Source: a virus. From it: 20,656 bases of DNA. The stretch lies in IMG/VR virus record IMGVR_UViG_3300047547_000130, positions 1-20,656 of that record. One strand, 5' to 3'. The position numbers and the translations under genes were made by a program. Each line of letters begins with the position of its first letter. The stretch's first letter is position 1. This document shows positions 1,117 through 5,578 of the stretch, piece after piece. Under the pieces are notes generated by a model that ran no database searches, was not told the DNA's origin, and was given only the letters and a program-made list of their open reading frames with translations.

Positions 1117-1193
1117 GGTGGCGGTAGCTCAATCGGTAGAGCGTGCGGCTGTGGCCCGCGAGGTTGCCGGTTCGAGTCCGGTCCGTCGCCCCA
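1117..1193 (+). tRNA. tRNA-His (anticodon GUG), CCA encoded
   Basis: All arms fold. The acceptor GTGGCGG (1118-1124) pairs with CCGTCGC (1183-1189) with two wobbles. The D arm is GCTC/GAGC, the anticodon stem TGCGG/CCGCG encloses the loop CTGTGGC with anticodon GTG, and the T arm is GCCGG-TTCGAGT-CCGGT. The base before the acceptor is G (1117) and the discriminator is C (1190). This gives the G-1:C73 pair that identifies histidine tRNAs. CCA is encoded at 1191-1193. It is probably phage-carried, although a prophage attachment at a tRNA gene cannot be excluded. Confidence 0.93.
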
Positions 1194-1578: not shown

Positions 1579-1731
1579 GTGTCAGTCAGCAAGCAAATCC
1601 TCGAATCCCACGGCTACGAATCGGCATCCGAGCCACGGTCATTACCGTCTCGGATCGCCAACGCCATCTACCTGCTTGTTGTCTTCACCGAAGCCATCAT
1701 TCTCAGCGCGGCGGTGTTCCTGTTCATGTAG
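1579..1731 (+). CDS. Small single-pass membrane protein, 50 residues
   Basis: The best start is a GTG at 1579, preceded by GAAAGG with nine bases of spacing; earlier in-frame starts would overlap the previous gene. The product is a polar N-terminal segment of about 27 residues followed by one hydrophobic helix (IYLLVVFTEAIILSAAVFLF) that runs almost to the C-terminus, so it looks tail-anchored. Small membrane peptides in phage accessory regions can act in lysis, superinfection exclusion or membrane interference. Nothing here decides between these. It ends five bases before the tRNA-like element. Confidence 0.55.
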   Translation: MSVSKQILESHGYESASEPRSLPSRIANAIYLLVVFTEAIILSAAVFLFM

Positions 1732-1736
1732 TCCAT

Positions 1737-1810
1737 GAGGGAGAAGCTCTCGTTAGAGCGTTCGCCACACCGGGCGAAAGGATCAGGTTCAACTCCTGAC
1801 TCCCTCTCCA
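1737..1810 (+). ncRNA. tRNA-like element with abnormal anticodon and D arms
   Basis: The acceptor GAGGGAG (1737-1743) pairs perfectly with CTCCCTC (1800-1806), followed by T and an encoded CCA (1808-1810). The T arm TCAGG-TTCAACT-CCTGA is canonical. The D arm GCTC-TCGTTA-GAGC lacks the usual GG of the D loop. The anticodon arm pairs either as TTCGC/GCGAA around the eight-base loop CACACCGG, or as six pairs around ACACCG; neither gives U33 in a seven-base loop. U73 and the CC in the loop recall glycine tRNA, but no reliable decoding can be assigned. It may be a decayed tRNA or a tRNA mimic. Confidence 0.6.
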
Positions 1811-1837
1811 GTTTTTATACCCAAGGAGAGAGCTGTC

Positions 1838-1945
1838 ATGCCGAGAAAGAAAAGCGAAATAGAGGCTCTGAAAATTATGAACTTCGGCAGCTTGTTCGCT
1901 GGCATCGGTGGTTTCGATCTCGGTCTTGAGCGTGTCAGTCGCTGA
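1838..1945 (+). pseudogene. N-terminal stub of a C5-cytosine DNA methyltransferase (35 residues)
   Basis: An ATG at 1838, after AAGGAGAG, encodes 35 residues including FGSLFAGIGGFDLGLER (residues 16-32). This is the conserved motif I (S-adenosylmethionine-binding FxGxGG) at the start of Dcm-type cytosine-5 methyltransferases. The frame stops two residues after VS, and no other motif, including the catalytic Pro-Cys motif, follows in any frame before the next gene. Complete enzymes are usually over 300 residues, so this is a remnant or a very short product of one. The ribosome binding site is intact, so the stub could still be translated. Confidence 0.65.
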
Positions 1946-3091: not shown

Positions 3092-3735
3092 CCCTGACCG
3101 AATTTTGCAAACGGTGGAACGAGAACGAGGCGGATTGGATTCAGTATCCATCCGGCGCGATTGTCAGTAAAAAAGCAAAAATTGAAAAACCTGACAATAT
3201 ACTCGGCGGATTCATCTGGCACAATGCGCAGGTGTCCGGCAATGCGCGGGTGTTCGGCGATGCGCAGGTGTTCGGCAATGCGCGGGTGTCCGGCGATGCG
3301 CAGGTGTTCGGCAATGCGCAGGTGTCCGGCGATGCGCAGGTGTCCGGCGATGCGCGGGTGTCCGGCAAAGCGTGGGTGTCCGGCGATGCGCAGGTGTTCG
3401 GCAATGCGCGGGTGTTCGGCGATGCGCAGGTGTTCGGCGATGCGCAGGTGTCCGGCAATGCGCGGGTGTTCGGCAATGCGCGGGTGTCCGGCAATGCGTG
3501 GGAAAATTCGCCATTACAGATTCAGGGGACCCAATTCTTCGTCAACATGGCAACGCATAGCGTTCTCAGGATTGGCTGTCATCAAATGACGATTGCTGAA
3601 TGGAAAAAACGTGGACGGGCGATTGCCAAAAAAAATGGATTCACGCCAGCGCAGATCGCCGAATACAAGCTCTACATTGAGCTGGCTGAAAAACTCTACA
3701 GGAAGCCGAGAAAGGGGTCCAAAAATGCCAAGTGA
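3088..3735 (+). CDS. Hexapeptide-repeat beta-helix protein, 215 residues
   Basis: Start ATG at 3088 overlaps the previous stop and follows GGAGA. Residues about 48-137 are fifteen tandem hexapeptides of the form (Q/R/W)V(S/F)G(N/D)A, the pattern of a left-handed parallel beta-helix as in hexapeptide transferases and phage proteins annotated as polymer-forming. The N-terminal 45 residues (MTLTEFCKRWNENEADWIQ) and the C-terminal part (FFVNMATHSVLRIGCHQ, then a charged helix with AEYKLYIELAEKLYRKP) flank the helix and are typical of such phage proteins. No catalytic site of an acyltransferase is visible. Its role is unknown; it may be a binding or scaffold protein. Confidence 0.8.
   Translation: MTLTEFCKRWNENEADWIQYPSGAIVSKKAKIEKPDNILGGFIWHNAQVSGNARVFGDAQVFGNARVSGDAQVFGNAQVSGDAQVSGDARVSGKAWVSGDAQVFGNARVFGDAQVFGDAQVSGNARVFGNARVSGNAWENSPLQIQGTQFFVNMATHSVLRIGCHQMTIAEWKKRGRAIAKKNGFTPAQIAEYKLYIELAEKLYRKPRKGSKNAK
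3229..3498 (+). repeat. Fifteen tandem 18-bp repeats inside the beta-helix gene
   Basis: The unit is (C/T)(A/G)GGTGT(C/T)CGGC(A/G)ATGCG and occurs 15 times without a gap. GTG, GGC and GCG codons are identical in every unit. All differences fall at three codons: CAG, CGG or TGG; TCC or TTC; and AAT or GAT (once AAA). Each change alters the amino acid, and there is no silent difference. The period keeps several other frames free of stops on both strands, which explains overlapping arginine- and proline-rich frames that are not genes. Confidence 0.95.
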
Positions 3736-5482: not shown

Positions 5483-5504
5483 TTTATGCACCAGAAAAGA
5501 AAAA

Positions 5505-5525
5505 GGGCCGGGAACGCCCCGGCCC
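5505..5525 (-). terminator. GC-rich hairpin, terminator-like on the minus strand
   Basis: GGGCCGGG (5505-5512) pairs perfectly with CCCGGCCC (5518-5525) across a five-base loop. On the minus strand the stem is followed by TTTTTCTTTTC, the form of an intrinsic terminator. On the plus strand no T run follows. It would therefore stop leftward antisense transcription coming from the structural genes. Confidence 0.5.
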
Positions 5526-5578
5526 CAACCCTAACGGAGAAAACGAAAATCAATCGGTTAATCCAAGGGTAGCGGCGC

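Follow-up and report, generated by a model that had tools for sequence, protein, structure and literature searches.

Phage tRNAs are increasingly viewed as counter-measures to immunity systems that inactivate tRNAs, and attention has so far focused on phage tRNAs that decode. Some of these carry changes in the anticodon loop that have been proposed to let them escape host anticodon nucleases (van den Berg et al. 2023, PMC10264068). A different departure from the standard tRNA architecture is represented by tRNA-Pyl, which has a short D loop without GG and a 6-bp anticodon stem, and yet keeps its anticodon loop (PMC7609411). Our literature searches yielded no account of phage tRNA genes that are anticodon-less, which is weak evidence of novelty given that subscription journals were poorly covered. 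The window analysed here is an entire IMG/VR virus record (IMGVR_UViG_3300047547_000130; 20,656 bases), with proteins matching a RuvC-like resolvase, terminase, portal, major capsid and internal virion protein, i.e. a fragment of a tailed-phage genome. Its positions 1737-1810 (forward strand) are occupied by a 74-nt tRNA-like element, including an encoded CCA, in which the part of a tRNA that reads the codon is missing.

A tRNA-family RNA without a decoding anticodon arm

The acceptor stem of the element is formed by GAGGGAG (1737-1743) and CTCCCTC (1800-1806), joined by seven of seven Watson-Crick pairs, with U73 and CCA (1808-1810) closing the 3' end (1800-1810). The tRNA positions 8-9 are AA (1744-1745), where U8 or UA is usual. 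The D arm (1746-1759) consists of GCTC (1746-1749), the loop TCGTTA and GAGC (1756-1759), and one G separates it from the anticodon arm (1761-1778), in which TTCGC (1761-1765) and GCGAA (1774-1778) make a stem of 5 bp around the 8-nt loop CACACCGG (1766-1773). The same nucleotides can alternatively be read as TTCGCC-ACACCG-GGCGAA, that is, as 6 bp with a 6-nt loop, U33 being absent in both readings. After AGGA follows the T arm (1783-1799), with TCAGG (1783-1787) and CCTGA (1795-1799) fully paired (5/5) around TTCAACT, a T-loop of the TTC type. All 21 of the 21 stem pairs (acceptor 7/7, D 4/4, anticodon 5/5, T 5/5) are Watson-Crick, with no G-U among them. The initial annotation had described an intact acceptor stem, T arm and encoded CCA, a D loop without GG, and an eight- or six-base anticodon loop without U33; all of this was confirmed with exact coordinates, and the D stem proved to be perfect, too.

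The tRNA-like fold is also the minimum free energy (MFE) structure of the 74-mer (-32.3 kcal/mol, z -3.84), with none of 200 shuffled sequences folding as well. The MFE structure extends the D stem and the anticodon stem by one pair each, giving a D arm of 5 bp with a 4-nt loop and making the 6-bp stem with the 6-nt loop the preferred fold of the anticodon arm. The cloverleaf-scanner score of the element is 21.0, compared with 15.2 for the best hit among 60 Markov-shuffled windows searched on both strands. Searched alone with the covariance model RF00005, the element reaches 40.9 bits against a gathering threshold of 29, and because of this score we count it as a tRNA-family RNA, one that is without a decoding anticodon arm. 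The same match was dropped by the default-size filters in the Rfam scan of the full window, and ARAGORN left the element uncalled, its sole call in the window being a tRNA-His at 1118-1193; odd-loop tRNA genes are thus easily overlooked.

In a decoding elongator, the anticodon loop would have 7 nt, include U33 and present a readable anticodon, and G18G19 would be available for the kissing pairs between the D and T loops; the element has none of these. Because U33, the 7-nt loop and the D-loop GG are all absent, it would be unable to enter translation, and normal decoding by such an RNA would, judging from its sequence, be impossible. The combination of U73 with A2-U71 indicates no clear aminoacylation identity.

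The element sits in a tight genomic position. The tRNA-His(GTG) called by ARAGORN and also recognised by Rfam (1118-1193, forward strand) is a normal one and lies 0.6 kb upstream. A 50-aa ORF (1580-1731, forward strand), which by eye has the look of a membrane peptide and had no family match in the family search, ends with its stop codon 5 nt upstream of the element. Downstream, a Shine-Dalgarno-like GGAGAG (1825-1830, forward strand) precedes a 35-aa ORF (1838-1945, forward strand) that is what remains of the N-terminus of a C5-cytosine DNA methyltransferase, matching model positions 1-20 of Pfam PF00145 (DNA_methylase) with an E value of 8e-4 and a score (19.4 bits) under the cut-off of 22. 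The Shine-Dalgarno sequence of the remnant is intact and its coding sequence ends after about 35 aa. No sigma-70 promoter and no terminator were found near the element. Elsewhere in the window, an 18-bp tandem repeat in 15 copies (3222-3498) encodes hexapeptide repeats of the NARVFGDAQVSG type, and a CCG-rich repeat (2255-2307) specifies an alanine-rich run within a small ORF. On the reverse strand, a stretch with a terminator-like hairpin (5490-5558) matches RF00519 (suhB/mmgR family) below threshold, at 26.4 bits where 41 are required, and might hint at an alphaproteobacterial host.

Relationship to phage tRNAs

When 1235 parsed phage tRNAs were compared with the element, the closest body proved to be that of an A8-A9 tRNA-Met(CAU) from the locus L083, from which the element differs at four of 44 compared positions (40 identical). 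The four differences correspond to pairs 2:71 and 49:65, both of them compensated. The element is thus built on a phage tRNA body. A pattern that combines a fixed A8-A9 with a short D loop and a T arm of normal form was matched in at least 119 viral contigs, mostly by phage tRNAs and in a few cases by chance in coding sequences, and in none of 289 alphaproteobacterial genomes, a single class that may not be that of the host. Some phage tRNA arrays (viral contigs L075-L246) commonly have A8 instead of the U8 found almost universally, in many cases combined with a short D loop; this includes tRNAs that the pattern had not retrieved (L196, L212).

No homologue of the element itself was found. Searches with blastn against phages and plasmids returned chance-level matches only, and the terminase and portal queries detected no relative among viral contigs at the search sensitivity used. 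The major capsid protein has five relatives (28-31% identity), and their records contain no recognisable tRNA. The anticodon-arm pattern GAGCGTTCGCCN{3,10}GGCGAA gave 38 matches in viral contigs, none of them in a tRNA-like context on inspection, and the exact D arm AAGCTCTCGTTAGAGCG gave zero matches. The single match of CGCCN{4,9}GGCGAAAGGNNCAGGTTCRA in bacterial genomes fell by chance into a coding sequence of a Paracoccus MAG; the T-arm pattern ATCAGGTTCAAYTCCTGA retrieved a mixture of normal tRNAs, chance matches and other T-arm-like RNAs; and the GCTCT...AGAGC matches in L194 and similar loci were dropped as one common sequence that appears to be coding in one frame.

Two of the chance-level blastn matches pointed to other unusual phage RNAs, in Pseudomonas phage pf16 and Salicola phage SCTP-2. 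In the latter (L046, 949-1067) and in L071 (8703-8828), both of them large phages, tRNA-His(GTG) genes carry an anticodon-loop insert of about 45-50 nt immediately after GTG. The two inserts have a covarying 6-bp closing stem (GGCCTT/AAGGCC versus GAAGTT/AACTTC) and an identical inner T-arm-like hairpin, TCAGGTTCAACTCCTGA, followed by AAAAGTAA or AAAGGTAA; the insert resembles either a small intron in the tRNA or a tRNA-like module nested within it. In phage pf16 (L045, 1490-1645), an unannotated stretch within a tRNA cluster has two T-arm-like hairpins flanking a long hairpin and may be a tRNA-like RNA that is nested or broken. In L072 and L074, outside recognised tRNAs, we saw by eye T-arm hairpins that are closed by acceptor-like stems of 9 bp and lack CCA.

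Odd-loop cloverleafs in other phages

A scan for cloverleafs that have a perfect anticodon hairpin of some other kind in place of any 7-nt U33/C33 anticodon arm covered 2.29 Mb in 246 loci, most of them virus contigs chosen with tRNA patterns as bait. Fourteen such cloverleafs, the element included, had zero mismatches in the acceptor, D and T stems and four had one, against none of either kind in a control scan of the reversed sequences; a further twelve had two mismatches, about six of these twelve being judged true by inspection. Normal phage tRNAs from the same loci numbered 627, 295 and 109 at zero, one and two mismatches, respectively, and no difference in stem integrity between the two groups was detected (Fisher p 0.8), nor did one emerge for the seven zero-mismatch odd-loop bystanders that no search pattern had baited (again p 0.8). 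At least 13 phage cloverleafs besides the element thus have anticodon loops of 4, 5, 6 or 8 nt and stems as intact as those of normal phage tRNAs. With the loci baited and the two-mismatch calls made by eye, the comparison is suggestive of an odd-loop class that keeps its stems like normal tRNAs do.

An example is L087, with an acceptor stem paired at 7/7, an anticodon stem closed by the tetraloop TTTC, G73-CCA and a z of -3.35, in whose 2.8 kb ARAGORN finds no tRNA. The odd loop of L231 is TCCATC (z -3.72), and those of L078, L224 and L129 are GTGCGA, TGCA and ACCAG, respectively. The other odd-loop elements have no anticodon-arm sequence in common and therefore may be independent losses, not one family. 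We also noted that a region of L093 (2220-3060), a locus with zero tRNAs according to ARAGORN, is rich in tRNA-like cloverleafs without a normal anticodon loop (at 2488, 2663 and probably about 2955), and that an identical tRNA-like element with the anticodon arm CCCCG-TAGAG-CGGGG (5-nt loop) occurs in L080, L110, L121 and L181, its copy in L080 adjoining tRNA-Phe and tRNA-Leu and being uncalled by ARAGORN.

Retention or decay

The explanation that we favour, with a probability of roughly 0.48, is that the element is a non-decoding tRNA of a phage lineage that is processed and retained because of the face formed by its acceptor and T arm, possibly serving as a decoy. Its transcript would be contained in a rightward message, from which host tRNA-maturation enzymes would excise it, RNase P acting at 1737 and 3' processing ending at the encoded CCA. 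The product would be a 74-nt RNA that has acceptor and T arms resembling those of any tRNA and does not enter translation, and selection would retain it for contacts made through the acceptor, T arm and CCA. In its favoured form, it would act as a non-productive competitor for host tRNA-inactivating enzymes that work at the acceptor end and not at the anticodon, although the decoy role, taken alone, we hold to be unlikely. The initial annotation had in mind a decoy for host anticodon nucleases, for which we see no positive support and little motivation, as the very loop that these nucleases read and cut is missing; if the element is a decoy at all, its lack of an anticodon loop makes acceptor-end enzymes the more sensible targets.

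The principal alternative, and a serious one, is a pseudogene of recent origin: one or a few mutations, for instance a single template-switch event that may have remodelled the anticodon arm, would have deprived a phage tRNA of its decoding loop, and its stems would not yet have eroded. Phage tRNA arrays are characterised by fast gene turnover, which fits this idea, as does the truncated methyltransferase gene directly 3' of the element, suggesting recent local decay or deletion; in addition, no homologue was found that shows conservation. How long intact stems would persist was assessed by a neutral simulation conditioned on U33 and the D-loop GG being lost, and the loop length being either lost or kept. 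Stems stayed intact in 16-53% of the simulations after four mutations, in 6-15% after five, in 3-8% after six, in 0.5-2.5% after eight and in 0.1% after ten. Intact stems are thus plausible (about 6-53% at four to five mutations) provided that few mutations, three to five, have accumulated since decoding was lost. Counted by eye, however, the departures of the element from the L083 type in unpaired features number at least five or six and comprise the shortened D loop, the loss of G19, U33, the loop length and the 3' side of the loop, and all 42 of its 42 stem bases are nevertheless paired. As simulated stem survival drops over this range of departures (to at most about 8% at six and less than 3% at eight), simple neutral decay seems disfavoured. 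The odd-loop cloverleafs as a group, being without excess stem damage, likewise argue against it. The recent wreck envisaged by the initial annotation is thus somewhat less likely than retention. Its statement that the intact parts imply selection gains indirect support, both from stems that are perfect despite the loss of U33, loop length and D-loop GG and from the comparable integrity of odd-loop cloverleafs elsewhere in phages.

A cis-acting role, either as a processing signal of the tRNA-punctuation kind or as a switch in the 5' leader of the gene that follows, is decidedly unlikely. In the latter version, CTCTCC (1804-1809) of the acceptor strand would pair in the tRNA fold or, in a mutually exclusive fold, sequester the Shine-Dalgarno-like GGAGAG. 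The tight placement between two ORFs speaks for such a role, and so does the near-equal energy of the two folds over 1732-1870 (-41.6 vs -42.6 kcal/mol); the folds are about 1 kcal/mol apart in short transcripts, and the GGAGAG-pairing one is favoured by about 4 kcal/mol in a 201-nt transcript. Nonetheless, a 35-aa methyltransferase remnant leaves little to regulate, six base pairs between a Shine-Dalgarno sequence and an acceptor strand rich in pyrimidines are weak evidence, and a leader switch would have no use for an encoded CCA.

Even less probable is a decoding tRNA of the frameshift type that would use the 8-nt loop and be glycine- or valine-like. Bacterial glycyl-tRNA synthetase prefers C2-G71. 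The element fits the glycine frameshifter suggested by the initial annotation only in U73 and in the CC within its 8-nt loop, and is at odds with it in having A2-U71 instead of C2-G71, an A as nucleotide 33, a D loop without GG and an MFE structure that prefers the 6-bp stem with the 6-nt loop; inspection of the ORF list also brought up no frameshifted client. The idea can draw on other phage odd-loop elements with 8-nt loops starting with CU (L235) and on the functional precedent of yeast mitochondrial tRNA-Thr, which works with an enlarged 8-nt loop (PMC7609411). Least credible of all is an integration-site remnant, i.e. an attP or attL copy of the 3' end of a host tRNA: phage integration at tRNA genes is indeed frequent and leaves tRNA fragments behind (PMC9897764), but the perfect pairing of the 5' half with the 3' half is not needed in an att copy, and the proteins examined included no recognisable integrase.

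If the retention of a non-decoding tRNA is true, a tRNA body kept without its decoding loop would mean that phages exploit the shape of tRNA alone, and would indicate the existence of defences that target the acceptor end. It is plausible that structurally sound phage tRNAs without decoding ability form a recurrent class. A bolder proposition, which we regard as at least as unlikely as the decoy role of the element itself, is that phages recurrently carry tRNA-like RNAs, anticodon-less and CCA-ended, that have phage tRNA bodies and are kept by selection as non-translating decoys of host factors that recognise the acceptor/T-arm end, the present element being the best-formed example among those seen.

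Comparison with known tRNA-like systems

Viral RNA that imitates tRNA is known from tRNA-like structures of the Tymovirus type (RF00233), and in this general sense the element resembles them; unlike them, it has an ordinary linear acceptor of 7 bp and no pseudoknot. The RF00233 scores (19.5 and 21.8 bits against a 40-bit cut-off) were at chance level. The likeness to tRNA-Pyl and other non-canonical tRNAs extends to the short GG-less D loop, the 6-bp anticodon stem and the short variable region (PMC7609411). The element differs from tRNA-Pyl in its normal T-loop (TTCAACT, not an atypical one), in the two bases (AA, not a single base) between the acceptor and D stems, and in having neither CUA nor a 7-nt loop. 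With the phage tRNAs of van den Berg et al. (PMC10264068), it shares a departure from the host type in the anticodon loop. Those tRNAs, with point changes in the loop, are read as functional, working replacements for cleaved ones, whereas the element, having lost both loop length and U33, is without decoding ability. Closest of all is the L083-type phage tRNA: unlike it, the element is without a 7-nt anticodon loop, U33 and the D-loop GG, and the two are alike in the acceptor, the D stem, the T arm, AA at positions 8-9 and CCA.
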